35,271 nt of DNA, taken from contig JACSDG010000089.1 in assembly GCA_015660855.1 (NCBI GenBank), positions 1 through 35,271 on the forward strand. The letters run 5' to 3'. The notes under the pieces are model-generated. The model was not told where the DNA came from, made no database searches, and saw only the letters and a list, made by a program, of their open reading frames with translations. Source of the DNA: Magnetococcales bacterium (lineage in GTDB: Bacteria > Pseudomonadota > Magnetococcia > Magnetococcales > UBA8363). Made by a program: the position numbers and the translations under genes. This document shows positions 10,594-31,963 of this stretch, piece by piece (the stretch's first letter is position 1; the number at the start of each line of letters is the position of its first letter).

Positions 10594-11541
10594 CTACCGT
10601 CCTTTTTTCCGGGCCAGGATCGCCTCTCCCAAACGGGGAGCGGCATCGAAAAGATCGGCTACCAGGGAATAATCGGCCACCGCGTGCAGGGGGGCGTTTG
10701 GATCATGATTGATGGCGACAATGATTCCCGCATCCTTGATGCCGGCCAAGTGTTGAATGGCCCCCGAAATTCCCAGGCCGATATAGAGATCTGGAGCCAC
10801 AATTTGTCCGGTCTGGCCAATTTGAAGATCACTGGAGGCAAGCCCCGCATCCACCGCCCCACGGGTTGCCCCCACCGCTCCCCCCAGTTGATCGGCCAAA
10901 GCCTCCACGGCAGCAAAGCTGTGCGCCGATTCCAACCCCTGCCCTCCCGCCACAATGACGGCAGCCTCGGATAAATCGGGCCTTTGGTTTGGCGATGACC
11001 GATAACCTTGATGCCGTCCCGACACAACCGCCGCGGGCAAGGACACCTCCAAAACAGGAGCCAGGGCGTGGATTGTAGCGGCTGGGGCAAAAGCGGTGGG
11101 GCGAACGGTTAACAGTGCCGGAAATTTTTTTAAAATCACCCGCGCCACAGCCTGCCCCGCATACACCGGTCGAGTGCAAACGTCGGGAGCCAAAATGGCG
11201 TTGACCTGGGTGACCGGAGAAATTTCCAACAGCCCCCCCACCCGGGGAATCAGATCGGCCCCAAAGGCATCATGAACTGCCAAAATCCAGCGATAATCCC
11301 CCGCCATCCCCTGGATGAGCCAAGCCAGATTTTCTGTCGATGGGGGAAAAGCATCGCTGTGGTTAACCAGAAGGACCGCATCAACCCCCTGAATCCGGCG
11401 ACCCGCCTCCGCTTTTTCCCCACTCCTGGATCCAGCCGCCAACAGGTCTACCCGCCCCAACAAAGTTCCCGCCGCAACGGCACGGGCCGTCAACGCCGAC
11501 GGACCACCCAGGCGATCACTGGCAAGCACCAAAACCTTCAA
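10594..11541 (-). CDS. etfA: Electron transfer flavoprotein alpha subunit
   Basis: A 315-residue ETF alpha subunit (FixB-like). The C-terminal FAD-binding domain is clear: VGATRGAVDAG, then QIGQTGQIVAPDLYIGLGISGAIQHLAG, and VAINHDPNAPLHAVADYSLVADL. With EtfB it forms the cytosolic FAD- and AMP-containing heterodimer that carries electrons from acyl-CoA and related dehydrogenases to ETF-quinone oxidoreductase. It starts at TTG, and the TTGA overlap with the etfB stop implies translational coupling. ETF-QO is not in the window. The redox operon context (osmC, dsbA) is unusual but the subunit pair itself is ordinary. Confidence 0.94.
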   Translation of the reverse strand: MKVLVLASDRLGGPSALTARAVAAGTLLGRVDLLAAGSRSGEKAEAGRRIQGVDAVLLVNHSDAFPPSTENLAWLIQGMAGDYRWILAVHDAFGADLIPRVGGLLEISPVTQVNAILAPDVCTRPVYAGQAVARVILKKFPALLTVRPTAFAPAATIHALAPVLEVSLPAAVVSGRHQGYRSSPNQRPDLSEAAVIVAGGQGLESAHSFAAVEALADQLGGAVGATRGAVDAGLASSDLQIGQTGQIVAPDLYIGLGISGAIQHLAGIKDAGIIVAINHDPNAPLHAVADYSLVADLFDAAPRLGEAILARKKGR

Positions 11542-12278
11542 GGGAGAACCCCCGCCTGATCCAATTGTTCAGCCAATTCTTCCACCGAAGCCACCCGTCG
11601 CCCAGAGGAACGTTGAACCGGCGGGCCATAATAAAGAATTTCCCAGGATGGGTCGGCGGATTGAGGCAACACACGAATTTCCAACGGTTTGGAACGTGCC
11701 TTCATGATGTTGGGCAGACTGGCATAACGTGGGGTGTTCAATCCCAGATCGCAACTGACGACCGCCGGCAATGGCAATCGCAAAAGTTGCCCCCCCCCAT
11801 CCACCTCCCGTACCACCTCCCCATACCCACGGACCAGACCAAACCGGGAAACGCAAGTCGCTTGGGGCCAGCCCAGAATTCCCGCCGTCATGGGTCCCGT
11901 CACCCCCCAATCGTGATCAACCCCCTGACGACCCAATAAAATCAAACCGACAGCCTCGCGAATGGCACAGGCAGCCAAAGCTTTTGCCACCTGCAAAGGT
12001 TCCAAGACGGAGTCGGTCCGAAGCAATATGGCCCGATCCGCCCCCATGGCCAAGGCTGTGCGTAACGATCCCTCCCATACTAAAGGACCAACGCTTACCG
12101 CCACCACTTCCGCCACCAATCCCTGTTCCTTTAGCCCGATAGCCGCCTCCAGGGCAATTTCGTCAAAAGGGTTGATGACCCCTCCTACCCCTTCCCGCTG
12201 CACACTTTCATCCCCAGCGGCGACATGAACCGCAACGGCCGGATCTCCCACCTCCTTGAGGGCTACCAAAACCTTCAC
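11538..12278 (-). CDS. etfB: Electron transfer flavoprotein beta subunit
   Basis: A 246-residue ETF beta subunit (FixA-like). Landmarks are MKVLVALKEV at the start, GVINPFDEIALEAAIGLKE near residue 33, the AMP-binding region with ALAMGADRAILL and LILLGRQGVDHDWGVTGPMTAGILGWP, and the signature LNTPRYASLPNIMKARSKPLE near residue 190, which contains the dehydrogenase recognition loop. It pairs with the overlapping etfA. The start is GTG, overlapping the dsbA stop as GTGA. Compared with common EtfB, the adenine-binding NxxD/Q area is conserved and no disruption is seen. Confidence 0.94.
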   Translation of the reverse strand: MKVLVALKEVGDPAVAVHVAAGDESVQREGVGGVINPFDEIALEAAIGLKEQGLVAEVVAVSVGPLVWEGSLRTALAMGADRAILLRTDSVLEPLQVAKALAACAIREAVGLILLGRQGVDHDWGVTGPMTAGILGWPQATCVSRFGLVRGYGEVVREVDGGGQLLRLPLPAVVSCDLGLNTPRYASLPNIMKARSKPLEIRVLPQSADPSWEILYYGPPVQRSSGRRVASVEELAEQLDQAGVLP

Positions 12279-12904
12279 CGTGAGGCCAAAGCCTCAACAA
12301 TCGCAAGCAACCGCTTGGCATCTCCCTTGGCATGGCTGCCGAAGGAAACCAAATATTTGCCGTTGACCACGAGTGTCGGCGTCCCGGTGACTCCGTAGGC
12401 TTTTTGCAGACTCAACGCTTGGCTCACCTTGGTGGAAACGCCGAAAGATTGCAGCTGCGCCTTGAGTTTTTCCGGATCCAGACCGGCATCTTCGGCAATG
12501 AATCCGACTTCATTGATGTTTTCAATATTCATGTTGGTGACAAACTGGGCCTTGAAGATGGCACCCTTCATCTGCGGACCATGCCCCAAAAATTCGGCGG
12601 CAAAAAATAAACGCAGGGGCAGATCGGTCTGCCGTCCCCAAAAAACCGGCAGCGACCGGTATTGATAGCGATCCCCGTTATTTTTCAACCAGGCCTCGAT
12701 GTGGGAATGGAGATCAAAGCAGTGGGGACACTTGAAGTTAAAAACTTCCACCACTTCCGGCTTGCCGGCTGGGGAAGGGACCGGCGGGACGATGGGGGCA
12801 TAGTCAATCCCGGGTTGGGGATTGACTGTCTCTGCGCCCGCCTGGGCAACGCCCAGGGTCAAAGCCATGAACAACAAAGCGATGGTCCGCAACATCGACG
12901 CCAT
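12275..12904 (-). CDS. dsbA: DsbA-like periplasmic thiol:disulfide oxidoreductase
   Basis: A 209-residue exported thioredoxin-fold protein. A signal peptide covers residues 1–24 (hydrophobic LLFMALTLGVAQAGA). The active site is CPHC at residues 59–62, within EVFNFKCPHCFDLH. The cis-proline loop GVTGTPTLVV lies near residue 180, as in DsbA. It oxidises cysteine pairs in exported proteins and is reoxidised by DsbB, which is not seen here. A GGAGG site lies inside the end of osmC, so it is translated from the same transcript. Its substrates might include c-type cytochromes such as MamX, but this is speculative. Confidence 0.9.
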   Translation of the reverse strand: MASMLRTIALLFMALTLGVAQAGAETVNPQPGIDYAPIVPPVPSPAGKPEVVEVFNFKCPHCFDLHSHIEAWLKNNGDRYQYRSLPVFWGRQTDLPLRLFFAAEFLGHGPQMKGAIFKAQFVTNMNIENINEVGFIAEDAGLDPEKLKAQLQSFGVSTKVSQALSLQKAYGVTGTPTLVVNGKYLVSFGSHAKGDAKRLLAIVEALASR

Positions 12905-12906
12905 GA

Positions 12907-13332
12907 TCAGGCCTCCATGATTTTAAAAGTGGTTTGTATTTTAGCGGTTTTGCCAAGCATGGCCGAAGCCGAACAGTAGGTTTCTTCGGAAAGCTGGATG
13001 GCCCGGGCCACCGCCTTTTCGGGAATCCCTTTGCCCGTCACGACAAAATGAACGGTGATGGCAGTAAAAACTTTAGGATCGGTCTGAGCGCGCGTCGCCT
13101 CAAGGGTGGCAACACAGTCCCGAACGTCGTGTCGTCCTTTCCGCAGGATGGAAATGACATCGACGCTGGCGCATCCCCCCAGCCCCATAAGGACCAGTTC
13201 CATGGGGCGTATCCCCATGTCCCGCCCCCCAAAAGATTCATGGGCATCCATGACCACCGTATGGCCCGATCCCGATTCCCCTAACAATTGCATGCCTTCG
13301 ATCAACTTGATGCGTGCCTGAACATCCGCCAT
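12907..13332 (-). CDS. OsmC/YhfA-family protein
   Basis: A 141-residue protein of the OsmC superfamily, YhfA branch. RPMELVLMGLGGCASVDVISIL places the first reactive cysteine at residue 54. EETYCSASAMLGKTAKI places the second at 120. OsmC proteins reduce organic hydroperoxides, while the YhfA branch is less defined. I chose the ATG with AAAGGGGAAA just upstream; the open frame continues 70 codons further but that stretch looks non-coding and overlaps the divergent promoter region. It heads the minus-strand operon osmC–dsbA–etfB–etfA, whose promoter should lie in the 13333–13579 gap. Confidence 0.85.
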   Translation of the reverse strand: MADVQARIKLIEGMQLLGESGSGHTVVMDAHESFGGRDMGIRPMELVLMGLGGCASVDVISILRKGRHDVRDCVATLEATRAQTDPKVFTAITVHFVVTGKGIPEKAVARAIQLSEETYCSASAMLGKTAKIQTTFKIMEA

Positions 13333-13579
13333 TGTTTTCCCCTTTAAGTGGTATGCCAAGGGTCGATACCATATTCTTTCATGAACCGGCCAGACCGCCA
13401 GTCCCCGCCCCCTTTTACACGCATTCTCCCCTGTCAGGAACCCCGTATTGATCAACCGGCCTTGATTTTTCCCATGCCGATGACCCGGATATGGATCAGC
13501 TCCTTTAAAGATCCATAACAATCGGCTAGACTGACACAAAGGCATGATCCAAGTCTATTTGTCAACGAGGTGGTCCCCC

Positions 13580-16520: not shown

Positions 16521-17882
16521 ATGGGTAACAGGATTGGATTTGCCATTGTTATGCTCCTGTGGTTTGGGTTGGTTTCCATCCGCTCCGCCGGGGCCGCCAT
16601 GCCTGCCAATGTCAATGGGCAGCCGCTGCCCTCCCTGGCCGACATGCTGGAGGATGTGGTGCCCACTGTGGTCAACATCACCACCGCGACCCGCATACGC
16701 ACGGTGGAACATCCCCTGTTGAGCGATCCCTTTTTCAGCCGGTTTTTCAACTTGCCGCAGATGGAACGGGATAAAATGCAGCAAAGCCTGGGGTCCGGGG
16801 TGATCGTGGACGCCGCCAAAGGGTTGGTCATCACCAATCACCACGTCATTCACAAAGCCGATTCCATTTCGGTCACTTTGCGCGATGGCCGGGTTCTCCA
16901 GGGAAAGCGGGTGGGATTGGACCGGGAAACCGACATGGCTTTGATCCAGATCCCCACCGAAGGCCTCAAGGCGGCGCGACCGGGAGATTCGGACGGCTTG
17001 CGCGTCGGTGATTTTGTCGTGGCCATCGGCAACCCCTTTGGCCTGGGACAAACAGTCACGTCCGGCATCATCAGTGCGATGGGGCGAAAAGGGTTGGGCA
17101 TCGACGGCTACGAAGATTTTATCCAAACCGACGCTTCCATCAATCCCGGCAATTCGGGGGGGGCTCTGGTCAATCTGCGTGGGGAATTGGTCGGCATCAA
17201 CACCGCCATTTTATCCCAAAGCGGCGGCAATGTGGGTATCGGCTTTGCCGTTCCCATCAACATGGTCCAACGCATTATCCGGCAACTGGTTCGATTTGGC
17301 GAAGTGCGACGCGGTCTGTTGGGCATCAGCAGCCAGGATTTAACCAGCGATCTGGCCACTGCCTTTGGCACCAGCCAAAAGCATGGAGCTGTCATCACCC
17401 GGATCGTCCCCGGATCGGCCGCCGACAAAGCGGGATTGAAGGTCGGAGATGTCGTTTTGTCGGCCAATGGTCGTCCCATCCAGAATTCGGGCACCTTGCG
17501 CAACCTGGTGGGACTTTCCATGGTGGGGGAACGGATACAAATTGAATTTCAACGCGACGGTAAACGCCGGCAGGTCACCGCCGATGTGACGGAACCCAAG
17601 ACCAAACGCACCGATGGCGAACGGATCGATCCCCGTTTCCTTGGTGCGATCCTTGAAAAAGTGGAGGGTGGCGAACAGGATCAGCCCATTGCGGTGGTAA
17701 GCGTACAACCCGACAGCCCCGCTTGGCACGCCGGACTGCGCGAGGGTGACCGGATTTTATCTGCCAATCGTATACCTGTCGGTTCCTTTGAACATCTTGC
17801 CGGGGTCGTACAAAAAAATGATCGGGAAATGTTGCTCAACATCCAAAGGGGCCAGGAAGGGTTTTTCATTCTTGTTCGTTGA
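16521..17882 (+). CDS. Do/DegP-like periplasmic serine protease
   Basis: A 453-residue HtrA-family protease. A signal peptide (residues 1–25, hydrophobic FAIVMLLWFGLVSI, then AGAA) exports it. The trypsin-like domain has His108 (TNHHVI), Asp138 (ETDMAL) and Ser212 (NPGNSGGAL). Two PDZ domains follow, roughly residues 265–350 (LLGISSQDL…GSAADKAGLKVGDVVLSANG) and 375–453 (SPAWHAGLREGDRILSAN). It degrades or refolds damaged exported proteins. It lacks CxxCH motifs, so it is not the magnetosome protease MamE, although both are HtrA-type. A GAGGA site lies 7 bases before the ATG. Confidence 0.92.
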   Translation: MGNRIGFAIVMLLWFGLVSIRSAGAAMPANVNGQPLPSLADMLEDVVPTVVNITTATRIRTVEHPLLSDPFFSRFFNLPQMERDKMQQSLGSGVIVDAAKGLVITNHHVIHKADSISVTLRDGRVLQGKRVGLDRETDMALIQIPTEGLKAARPGDSDGLRVGDFVVAIGNPFGLGQTVTSGIISAMGRKGLGIDGYEDFIQTDASINPGNSGGALVNLRGELVGINTAILSQSGGNVGIGFAVPINMVQRIIRQLVRFGEVRRGLLGISSQDLTSDLATAFGTSQKHGAVITRIVPGSAADKAGLKVGDVVLSANGRPIQNSGTLRNLVGLSMVGERIQIEFQRDGKRRQVTADVTEPKTKRTDGERIDPRFLGAILEKVEGGEQDQPIAVVSVQPDSPAWHAGLREGDRILSANRIPVGSFEHLAGVVQKNDREMLLNIQRGQEGFFILVR

Positions 17883-27565: not shown

Positions 27566-28270
27566 ATGGCCAGCTACACCTTGAATGCCAGCTTTACCAA
27601 TGCCGATCTGAATTTGTTCTACCAAACCGGCACCAATCTGATCATCGCCAAGCCCACACAACAGAGCAGCGGAGTTCCCAATGTGGCCTGGCTTGTGATC
27701 AGGCCCATGCAGTCCAATACCATCGTATGGGACGAGAATTACGGCATCTATGCCTCCACGTCGAGCATCACCAATGGTGCCACGCTCACCAAAATGTCCA
27801 CTTCCGGGATGCCCGCCGTCATGGGACGGATGTACAACCTTTCCCCCGCCGGAACCATCGATATCCAACCCATGAGTGGTGATCTCAGTTCCTTCACCCT
27901 GACCAACTTATACAATGCACCAGGCACCTTCATGACCGTCGGGCTTTATCAGAATGCCAACGTGAACGGCTCCGCCATCCTCGGCAACGCCCTCTCGGCC
28001 GCTCCGGTCATTTACTCCTACCAGGCTGTCATCACCCCCTTTACCACCATCTACATGTGGATGCAGTCTCAGGTGAGAAGTAACACCGTCATCACCAATG
28101 TTACTTCAACAATGACCCAGGTGACATTCGGCGGCGGCGTCAACACCGCATCTATGCAATACAACCCTTCGGATGGAACTTTTATCACGGCACAGGGAAA
28201 CAATACGATGCTGCTCTCCAGCATGGAACAACCCCAGGCCATGGTCCATCATCTTCTGCCACAGCTGTAG
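27566..28270 (+). CDS. Unknown protein, tandem paralogue 1
   Basis: A 234-residue protein with no signal peptide, transmembrane helix or cysteine. By eye about half its residues match the next gene: both have LFYQTGTNLIIAK at residues 17–29, a W-x-VIRPM block, then (W)xExYGIYAS near 60, (M)PAVxGR(M/I)Y(N/D)L(S/T)PAGT near 90, (V/I)GLYQxANVNG near 130 and AVITPxxTxYMWxQS near 160. The family is unknown to me. I place the start at an ATG preceded by AAAAGGA; an ATG 5 bases earlier is out of frame. CTCCCA/TGGGAG and TCCGCC/GGCGGA hairpins precede the gene. Confidence 0.65.
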   Translation: MASYTLNASFTNADLNLFYQTGTNLIIAKPTQQSSGVPNVAWLVIRPMQSNTIVWDENYGIYASTSSITNGATLTKMSTSGMPAVMGRMYNLSPAGTIDIQPMSGDLSSFTLTNLYNAPGTFMTVGLYQNANVNGSAILGNALSAAPVIYSYQAVITPFTTIYMWMQSQVRSNTVITNVTSTMTQVTFGGGVNTASMQYNPSDGTFITAQGNNTMLLSSMEQPQAMVHHLLPQL

Positions 28271-28388: not shown

Positions 28389-29090
28389 ATGCAAAACTTT
28401 ACATTGAACATCAACTTTACCTCTTCCGATATCCAATTATTCTACCAGACAGGCACCAACCTGATCATCGCCAAGGCAATCAAGGGCGACGCCAACACCC
28501 CCAGTGCCGTCTGGCAGGTCATCCGGCCCATGGAAGCCAATTCGGTGACCTGGACAGAGCAATACGGTATTTATGCCTCAAAAAATCAAATCGATGCGGG
28601 CACCGCCGTGACCAAAATGGCCAGCACCGGCATTCCGGCGGTCCCGGGCCGCATTTACGATCTGACCCCCGCTGGAACCCTTGCGATCCAATCCCAGGGC
28701 AATGATGCCAACGCCTTCACCGTGGTCAACGACTACCAGACCGCCACCCAAATGATGACCATCGGGCTTTACCAAGCTGCCAACGTCAACGGTATCGATG
28801 TCACTGGCAACGTCACCTCGGCTGCGGCGGTCATCTACAAATTCAAAGCGGTCATCACCCCCATCAATACCGTCTACATGTGGTTGCAGTCCTCGACGAA
28901 AGGCAACAGTACCCTCAAAGGTGTCTTTTCCCCCATGACCGTGGTACCTTTCAGCGATGTTGTCACAATTATTTCCATGCAATACGATCCCCAAACCGCC
29001 CTTTTTTTCTCGGCGGGTTCCAATGCACCCACACAAACTTCCTCCCTTAATACCCGGCCCGAAATCCGCCACATCGCTCCAAGGATGTAA
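28389..29090 (+). CDS. Unknown protein, tandem paralogue 2
   Basis: A 233-residue homologue of the preceding protein, sharing its blocks in the same order and almost the same length. It lacks a signal peptide and membrane helix. Differences lie mainly in the C-terminal 60 residues. The start ATG is weakly preceded by GGAAAAG. A gap of 118 bases with the GC-rich hairpin separates the copies, and 216 bases separate it from mamX. Tandem duplication next to magnetosome genes suggests a lineage-specific expansion. The function is unknown and the link to magnetosomes is inferred from position. Confidence 0.65.
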   Translation: MQNFTLNINFTSSDIQLFYQTGTNLIIAKAIKGDANTPSAVWQVIRPMEANSVTWTEQYGIYASKNQIDAGTAVTKMASTGIPAVPGRIYDLTPAGTLAIQSQGNDANAFTVVNDYQTATQMMTIGLYQAANVNGIDVTGNVTSAAAVIYKFKAVITPINTVYMWLQSSTKGNSTLKGVFSPMTVVPFSDVVTIISMQYDPQTALFFSAGSNAPTQTSSLNTRPEIRHIAPRM

Positions 29091-29306: not shown

Positions 29307-30086
29307 ATGAAGTTTGGCATGTGGATCATGGCCACAGGTTTGATGTTGGGCACCGGGCTGTTTCTCATGGCGGTGTTCGATGTCGATCCTTGGAAGGATC
29401 CCGGCTATAACTATGCCCCCCCCATCGCGGCAGGTGCCCCCTCTCCGCATGTGAGTGATCGCTTCGGCAGGGCTTGTTCCAGCTGTCACCAGATCATCAA
29501 TCCTCAAAGAGACTTGGCCATTCCCTTCGTCCCCATACCCAGCGGAGCCATTTCCCCGCATCGGGACGGTCGCGAAAGCCAAGCCTGCTCCAGGTGCCAC
29601 CGCATCCTGGCCAGAAAAAACATACCCACCAGAACCCAACCCCAACAAAACGCTGTCGCCCAGGGCATACCCGTCGCCATTGTGCCCCCTCTCCCTCCCC
29701 TGCCCTCGCCCCCCGCAGTCAGGGATAATGAGTGGCATGAAAAGTTCCGGCCCATTCGCTTTCAGGGCAAAATATTGGCCGTTGCAGGCAAAAATTTAAG
29801 CTTAGGTCGCAACAACATCAATATTCTCATCAACGATGGTATCAACCAACCCTCATGGTACAACCTGGCCCCGGAATGGTACCTGAAATCCACCAAATGT
29901 AACGTGTCTTATGGATTGTATGTCAAAGGAACCGCCTTCAGAGAGTTGGGCGGCACCAACACTCTGCGCTATGGCCAAAATTTATCGGTCAACGGCCAGT
30001 ATTGCCCATTGCGCAACTCGCACATGGAAGGGTTGTGGAATCCAGCCACCAGGCATCACAACGAAGAAGAAGCCGAGTTGGAATAA
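29307..30086 (+). CDS. mamX: MamX-like magnetochrome protein
   Basis: A 259-residue protein. An N-terminal membrane anchor (residues 4–24) is followed by two magnetochrome units, PHVSDRFGRACSSCHQII (CxxCH at 57–61) and PHRDGRESQACSRCHRIL (CxxCH at 94–98), each a c-type haem site in the spacing typical of MamE, MamP, MamT and MamX. A Pro-rich linker at 122–138 leads to a C-terminal domain with GKNLSLGRNN and YGLYVKGTAF. MamX proteins act in magnetosome iron redox control and magnetite growth. Its stop overlaps the mamZ start, the arrangement known for mamX–mamZ. I chose the ATG preceded by GGGCGGA; one four codons earlier and a TTG further upstream are also possible. Confidence 0.85.
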   Translation: MKFGMWIMATGLMLGTGLFLMAVFDVDPWKDPGYNYAPPIAAGAPSPHVSDRFGRACSSCHQIINPQRDLAIPFVPIPSGAISPHRDGRESQACSRCHRILARKNIPTRTQPQQNAVAQGIPVAIVPPLPPLPSPPAVRDNEWHEKFRPIRFQGKILAVAGKNLSLGRNNINILINDGINQPSWYNLAPEWYLKSTKCNVSYGLYVKGTAFRELGGTNTLRYGQNLSVNGQYCPLRNSHMEGLWNPATRHHNEEEAELE

Positions 30087-31963
30087 TGACCACCCTTAAA
30101 AATACCCTCCCCGCCGAAAAACCTGATATTCTCTATCTGGCCAGTGCCCTTGGATCCCTGGTGATGGCCGTCACCGTCGGACTGCAACCCCTGTTTCTGG
30201 ACGAATATTTCGGCATCGCCTTTGAACAATCCGGCACCATCAACGCCCACCTTCTGGTGATGACCCAGCTGGTTGGCTTGGCCCTGACCATCACCCTGGA
30301 ACCCATCACCCAATCAACCAAAATAAAAGCTTTGCTGTCGGCGTTTCTCGTCGCCTGCGTCGGTTCCATCCTGGCCCCCTTCAGCCATCTTTTCGGCGCA
30401 GGGATCGGTTTGGGTGGATTGTTGTTCTACTATCTCAGCCGCACCCTGGTATCCTACGGTACAGAAATGGCCCAGTGGCAGTTGGCCTCGCTGATTTCGG
30501 AACGCTTCCCCCGACACCACACCACCAACCTGTGGTCGGCCATGACGGTCATGACGGTCGTGGGAGCCGTTTTAGTGTGTGGGATTTTATTGCAAATACC
30601 TTTGACAGAAACCAAACTGTTTCTCGCCATGATGGTACCCATGCTGGCCGCCATGGCGGCTGCGGGCATGGTTTTGCGCCTTTTACGCCCCATTCAGCCC
30701 GATCCCGTGGAAATAACCGCAGAAGCCGGATTTGGCAAAGTTGTGGATGTCATCGCTGGCGATGTCCGCCTGCAATTATCCCTGGCCACCATTTTTTTTG
30801 TGCGGGCCGATTTTATCGCCGTCAACCTGTTTTTTTCCCTTTGGTGCATCTCTTTCGCCGATCTGGTGGGCATTTCCCGTGGTCAGGCGGTAGCCCATGC
30901 CGGCTGGTTATTGTTGCTCACAGGCTTGTCCTTGCTGGCCTCCATCCCCTTTTGGCGCACCTTCATGGCGCGATCCAGCCGCATTTCCGCCTTGGGGGTC
31001 AGTCTTTCCGTCGGTGCCATGGGTTTTCTGCTGCTGTCGCGTATCAACGATCCGTTCAATGGACCCGTCCTGGGGCCCCTGGTGATGATCGGCGTCGGCC
31101 ATGCCGGTTGTCTGCTGGCCTCCCGCACACTCGCCGCCGAGCTGACCCCACTGCCACTGCTGGGACCGGTACAACGCATGTTTCAACTCGTCAGCGGCAT
31201 CGGTGTCATCCTTCTGGTTCAGAGTGGCGGCTATTATTTTGACGCCGTGGGGCCACAAGCACCGTTCACCCTCATGGGATCAGGCTACCTGTTCATCACC
31301 ATGTACGCCCTGTGGATGGTGGGTAACCGCATCGACGAACATGCCGACCACACCCTGATCAAACACCATCGCCTGGACATGAAACCTTTGCTGTTCATGT
31401 TTTGCCTGCTCCCTGTCACTTGGTTGGTGGGCAGGGTGTTGATCACCGGCTATTCCCCCGGTAGCTCCCTGGGACAAATGCCCGTGGGATTCATCAATCG
31501 TTATCTGGGGGACTGGGCCTTCAACTTTCTGCTGATTTCCCTGGCATGGCGCCCCTTAAGCGAATTGGCCGGTCGTCGATCCTTGCTGCGTTATTCGCGC
31601 ATGATCGGCCTTTACGCCTTCTTCTACGCCATCCTTCACGTCATGACCTATGTATGGCTGGAGTGGGTCCTTCAATGGAGTGACATGCTGACCGACATGC
31701 ATAAGCGACCCTTCATCTATCTGGGATTGGCCGCATTTGTGCTCCTGGTAGCGTTGTCGGTGACCTCCCTTTACCCCGTGCGCCGACAGATGGGGCAAAA
31801 AAATTGGAAACGGTTGCACCAAACGGTCTTCCCAATCAACCTGATGGTCGCGTTGCACTTTATTATGGCCGCCTCTCACGATAACGGCGAACCCTATGCC
31901 TATGCTGGTCTGGTCCTGTTTCTCACAGCCTATCGCAGCAAAAATAAATTTAAACGCACATAG
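30086..31963 (+). CDS. mamZ: MamZ-like MFS–ferric reductase fusion
   Basis: A 625-residue polytopic membrane protein. Residues 1–about 400 resemble a 12-helix major-facilitator transporter (GLQPLFLDEYFGI; GTEMAQWQLASLISERFPRHHTTNLWSAMTVM). The last 180 residues match the YedZ/MsrQ ferric-reductase-like membrane domain: RYSRMIGLYAFFYAILHVMTYVWLEW, DMHKRPFIYLGLAAFVLLVALSVTSLYPVRRQ and NWKRLHQTVFPINLMVALHF, with likely haem-ligating histidines. This exact fusion is the hallmark of MamZ, proposed to move iron or electrons into the magnetosome lumen together with MamX and MamH. ATG overlaps the mamX stop as TAATG. Excellent match by architecture and neighbour. Confidence 0.9.
   Translation: MTTLKNTLPAEKPDILYLASALGSLVMAVTVGLQPLFLDEYFGIAFEQSGTINAHLLVMTQLVGLALTITLEPITQSTKIKALLSAFLVACVGSILAPFSHLFGAGIGLGGLLFYYLSRTLVSYGTEMAQWQLASLISERFPRHHTTNLWSAMTVMTVVGAVLVCGILLQIPLTETKLFLAMMVPMLAAMAAAGMVLRLLRPIQPDPVEITAEAGFGKVVDVIAGDVRLQLSLATIFFVRADFIAVNLFFSLWCISFADLVGISRGQAVAHAGWLLLLTGLSLLASIPFWRTFMARSSRISALGVSLSVGAMGFLLLSRINDPFNGPVLGPLVMIGVGHAGCLLASRTLAAELTPLPLLGPVQRMFQLVSGIGVILLVQSGGYYFDAVGPQAPFTLMGSGYLFITMYALWMVGNRIDEHADHTLIKHHRLDMKPLLFMFCLLPVTWLVGRVLITGYSPGSSLGQMPVGFINRYLGDWAFNFLLISLAWRPLSELAGRRSLLRYSRMIGLYAFFYAILHVMTYVWLEWVLQWSDMLTDMHKRPFIYLGLAAFVLLVALSVTSLYPVRRQMGQKNWKRLHQTVFPINLMVALHFIMAASHDNGEPYAYAGLVLFLTAYRSKNKFKRT

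Follow-up and report, generated by a model that had tools for sequence, protein, structure and literature searches.

A mamX–mamZ gene pair in a Magnetococcales draft genome and its apparent separation from the mamAB genes

The stretch of DNA analysed here, referred to as the window, is the entire contig C23 (35,271 bases) of a Magnetococcales draft genome of 4.52 Mb and 97.8% completeness. Two overlapping genes lie on its plus strand at positions 29307–31963. The upstream one, mamX (29307–30086, from the ATG at 29307 to the TAA at 30086), encodes a protein of 259 residues, in which a hydrophobic N-terminal segment is followed by two magnetochrome domains and a MamS-like C-terminal domain. The first-pass annotation had recognised two CxxCH magnetochrome units in this gene, and both match PF18509 (MCR) over the cut-off: domain 1 (CSSCH; 29418–29501, plus strand) with 36.4 bits, and domain 2 (CSRCH; 29532–29609, plus strand) with 41.0 bits. 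Residues H48, C57, C60, and H61 of the first domain and H85, C94, C97, and H98 of the second are invariant in 24 MamX proteins of the order, and residues 143–244 are recognised by the MamS model NF040991 (E = 1.1e-13). MamX is probably a membrane-anchored tandem magnetochrome protein—a di-haem protein with c-type haems—facing the magnetosome lumen. A PDB sequence search with MamX returned MamP alone, at E = 0.43, and an AlphaFold model built from three sequences was unusable (mean pLDDT of 36).

As a whole, the protein matches the NCBIfam model NF040996 MamX with 272.6 bits (E = 3.4e-81), under the equivalog cut-off of 400 bits, which is an annotation threshold and not a biological feature. 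The same is observed for seven of the eight other Magnetococcales MamX proteins tested, each encoded beside MamZ, which score between 273 and 316 bits, so that the 400-bit threshold does not mark a boundary of the family; the sole protein above it is that of G018, a closed, MC-1-like genome of the same order. We infer that the scores below 400 bits represent lineage divergence, and that the threshold mirrors the sequences from which the model was built rather than the edge of the family.

The second gene, mamZ (30086–31963, plus strand), runs from the ATG at 30086 to the stop codon at 31963 and encodes 625 residues. It is joined to mamX by a TAATG stop/start overlap (30084–30088, plus strand), with one shared base at 30086. 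Its earlier description as an overlapping fusion of MFS and YedZ portions, and hence as mamZ, is borne out by the NCBIfam model NF040998 MamZ, which gives 740.8 bits (cut-off 650; E = 1e-222; model positions 10–623 of 633), so that both the magnetochrome and the MamZ families, proposed at the time as a check, are found over their cut-offs. The N-terminal half is MFS/MamH-like, while the C-terminal half is YedZ/MsrQ-like, with a ferric-reductase-like domain (PF01794, Ferric_reduct; 31529–31846, plus strand) at E = 2.5e-15, over the cut-off. H519, H579, and H592 are invariant in 24 MamZ proteins of the order, and their spacing of 60 and 13 equals that of H91, H151, and H164 in MsrQ from Escherichia coli, which we take to be the haem ligands of that protein. 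MamZ is probably a magnetosome-membrane MFS protein fused to a haem-b YedZ domain. The PDB sequence search with MamZ gave no match.

Regarding the remainder of the window, the earlier view that it holds no other classical mam gene agrees with a tblastn search with mam proteins, which returned only a Do-family protease and cross-matches of mamX and mamZ. The protease, a DegP-like gene at 16521–17882, was considered as a candidate MamE and rejected, as it matches TIGR02037 with 469.5 bits, over the cut-off, but scores 202 bits for MamE, where the cut-off is 800; it is an ordinary Do-family protease. Genes for a rhodanese, a GGDEF protein, and a phasin follow mamZ on its 3' side. Just 5' of mamX lie two tandem paralogous genes (27566–28270 and 28389–29090), whose products of about 234 residues are 47% identical. 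Neither of them matches a Pfam family, and the downstream copy found no homologue in seven genus-mates. For the rhodanese, too, the genus-mates offer no close homologue, the best being 39% identical, in two of them. All five of these genes were rejected as parts of the module, since they lie beside mamXZ in no genus-mate. Further away, an operon-like run on the minus strand (10594–13545) encodes two electron-transfer-flavoprotein subunits, a DsbA-like protein, and an OsmC-like protein.

The first-pass annotation had proposed looking beyond the window for mamAB genes, and this search was positive, because another contig of the same genome, C160 (73.2 kb), carries mamH, E, K, M, O, P, A, Q, B, S, and T. 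C160 also holds genes resembling the MamF/MmsF-like genes of G018, whose names were read from their sequence. Within its mamAB cluster, a protein of 936 residues (L013:9817-12627) matches MamA with 80 bits over its C-terminal 200 residues, and a normal MamA is present besides. Named close relatives by MamZ are the Magnetococcales metagenome-assembled genomes HA3dbin1 and nHA5abin3, from the same genus, with MamZ proteins 74–76% identical to that of the window.

A more general claim was that the mamX–mamZ signature is confined to magnetosome gene clusters. MamZ was found over the cut-off in 25 of the 398 genomes of the phylum searched, all 25 of which have a MamH match (partial in G032), and in none of 14 well-known control genomes, which supports the pair as a specific marker of magnetosome genomes. 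It also marks the host of the window as a probable magnetotactic bacterium. Within the Magnetococcales, MamX adjoins MamZ in each of the 23 genomes whose MamZ exceeds the cut-off. The two MamZ-bearing genomes outside the order, G122 and G152, which belong to another family of the same phylum, have additional magnetochrome domains encoded on the contig that carries mamZ. The MamX-like proteins there (L123:1393-1851 in G122 and L124:1441-1989 in G152) contain two or three magnetochromes and are too short for the MamS-like C-terminal domain; their genes lie downstream of mamZ rather than upstream. In addition, the pair-bearing genome G012 holds a second, divergent MamX–MamZ pair (L075, on contig C354), with a MamZ score of 641.8 bits.

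Within the Magnetococcales, the distribution of the pair is patchy. MamZ exceeds the cut-off in 23 of 48 genomes, and the presence of mamXZ on the MamH tree requires at least 11 changes over all 44 rows, some of them probably due to incomplete genomes, and at least 5 among the 28 genomes of at least 90% completeness. This restricted tree leaves out the MamH copy on contig C170 of G037 because of its long branch and because it is perhaps not the cluster's own copy, another one being present on C66 together with mamE. A congener of the window genome, G007 (99% complete), has no mamXZ and a different mam lineage; monophyly of the genus in MamH was rejected (p-AU = 5e-58) for a group defined as the taxon, G007 having been seen apart before the test. 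The mamAB set of G007 (contig C45, L086) is only 38–61% identical to that of the window genome, and its magnetosome cluster seems to be of different origin. Since about half of the order, including the 99%-complete G007, has no pair, mamXZ is accessory in the order. That mamCXZ is absent from part of Ca. Magnetaquicoccaceae, yet mamXZ is present in HCHbin5, has already been published (PMC6783814). Two near relatives both rated 100% complete, G011 with the pair and G026 without it, offer a natural comparison for the effect of mamXZ on crystal size and mineral type.

The identity of the pair can be weighed against a reading in which an ordinary periplasmic cytochrome c of the NapB/NrfH type lies beside a YedZ/MsrQ subunit, with no link to magnetosomes. 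The C-terminal half of MamZ lends itself to this reading, as it matches not only Ferric_reduct but also the MsrQ model, with 128.6 bits, slightly below the cut-off of 130. However, the matches of MamX are limited to magnetosome families (MamX, MamS, MamE, and MCR), the MamZ model is covered over its full length and over its cut-off, and mamAB is present in the same genome. Family matches and genome content rule this reading out, and its probability is negligible. There is very little doubt that positions 29307–31963 hold the authentic mamX–mamZ pair of a magnetotactic coccus of the Magnetococcales, to which the redox role known from Magnetospirillum gryphiswaldense would apply by analogy.

The position of the pair is a matter of more graded judgement, and its earlier description as a separate module stands only in part. 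In favour of it, each of the six pair-bearing genus members has mamXZ and mamH on different contigs, and the neighbours of the pair differ among most lineages of the genus: G004 and G005, which are closely related, have a lytic transglycosylase and a chemotaxis-hemerythrin receptor, G002 has mutL nearby, and the short contigs of G003 and G006 hold yet others. Against it, C23 ends 3.3 kb past mamZ and C160 starts 6.7 kb before mamT, so that, the genomes of the genus all being drafts, the closest possible spacing to mamAB is about 10 kb. Such a gap could be accommodated if mamXZ shared one magnetosome island with mamAB and assembly alone had separated them. Elsewhere in the order, the pair is often found within the magnetosome cluster; in G018, G029, G014, G025, G015, G024, G047, and G038, other mam genes occur on its contig at distances of about 3 to 46 kb. 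Nevertheless, no other mam gene is present in the 29 kb upstream in the window or in the first 60 kb of the G004 mamXZ contig (63.8 kb in all), and the distinct contigs and differing non-mam neighbours within the genus also speak against a shared island, which we regard as a real but somewhat improbable explanation. The tblastn search found no further mam gene on the read parts of the mamXZ contigs of the genus members, and several genomes of family f7 again hold the pair on a separate contig (e.g., G027, of 172 kb). Detachment of mamXZ from mamAB in the genus is likely. Acquisition or movement of mamXZ alone, through horizontal transfer independent of mamAB, has also been considered. Its patchy presence, the differing neighbours, and the disagreement of the MamZ and MamH trees between families would suit such a transfer, but the six genus members with mamXZ form a single clade (support 100) for each of MamX, MamZ, and MamH, the base composition of mamXZ is similar to that of the mamAB genes and its neighbours, the window has no tRNA gene, and no obvious mobile-element ends flank the pair, all of which makes transfer unlikely. 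A further reading, which we rate as slightly less likely than not, is that mamXZ of this genus has left the magnetosome island as a free-standing two-gene module, whose chromosomal place varies by species while the mamAB order (mamH-E-K-M-O, conserved within the genus) is kept. On this reading, the pair has been lost repeatedly within the order and would be an optional supplement to magnetite formation.

With respect to function, passages in PMC3971196 and PMC3905215 report that, as deletions in M. gryphiswaldense show, MamX, MamZ, and MamH influence redox control during magnetite formation (Raschdorf et al. 2013), with haematite flakes appearing alongside magnetite in the mutants. According to the same passages, both the MamX magnetochromes and the YedZ portion of MamZ are required in MSR-1, for which a MamXZH iron oxidoreductase/transport complex has been proposed, and the location in the magnetosome membrane and the role in magnetite redox control have been shown in MSR-1 alone (PMC3971196, PMC3905215). 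By analogy, MamZ, together with MamH, would exchange electrons with MamX across the magnetosome membrane and adjust the ratio of Fe(II) to Fe(III) such that magnetite forms instead of haematite. The partner gene mamH is present on C160 of the same genome. Since neither protein varies at its haem-binding residues across the 24 sequences of the order, the same function as in M. gryphiswaldense is the likeliest, and the location of the two window proteins, the direction in which electrons flow, the mineral formed, and the phenotype are presumed by that analogy.

In comparison with known systems, the pair belongs to a known family, most likely with the known function; the analysis contributes a divergent MamX/MamZ pair that comes from an uncultured lineage, and the apparently detached, shifting position within the genus is a modest addition to what is known. 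As in the mamXY operon of Magnetospirillum (mamY-mamX-mamZ-ftsZ-like), mamX is directly followed by mamZ with the same domains, and the operon of MSR-1 likewise lies apart from mamAB, at about 28 kb (PMC3905215). However, the mamXY operon contains mamY and an ftsZ-like gene, whereas the window pair is flanked by other families with no ftsZ-like gene adjoining, and the MamY model found nothing in the genome; the pair is consequently not classed as a mamXY operon. The mamCXZ genes of Magnetofaba australis IT-1 (PMC3934378), from the same order, include the same mamXZ pair, but there it adjoins mamC in the magnetosome gene region, while mamC was not found by similarity in the window's genome. In G018, whose MamZ is 45% identical to that of the window, mamXZ adjoins a gene taken for mamD on the strength of its sequence, whereas the window pair adjoins no mam gene. 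The MamX of G018 (L048:14768-15802) holds four CxxCH motifs, as does that of G029, with three in G025 and G027, compared to the two of the window. The relatives HA3dbin1 and nHA5abin3 exhibit the same mamX–mamZ arrangement as the window, with other flanking genes.
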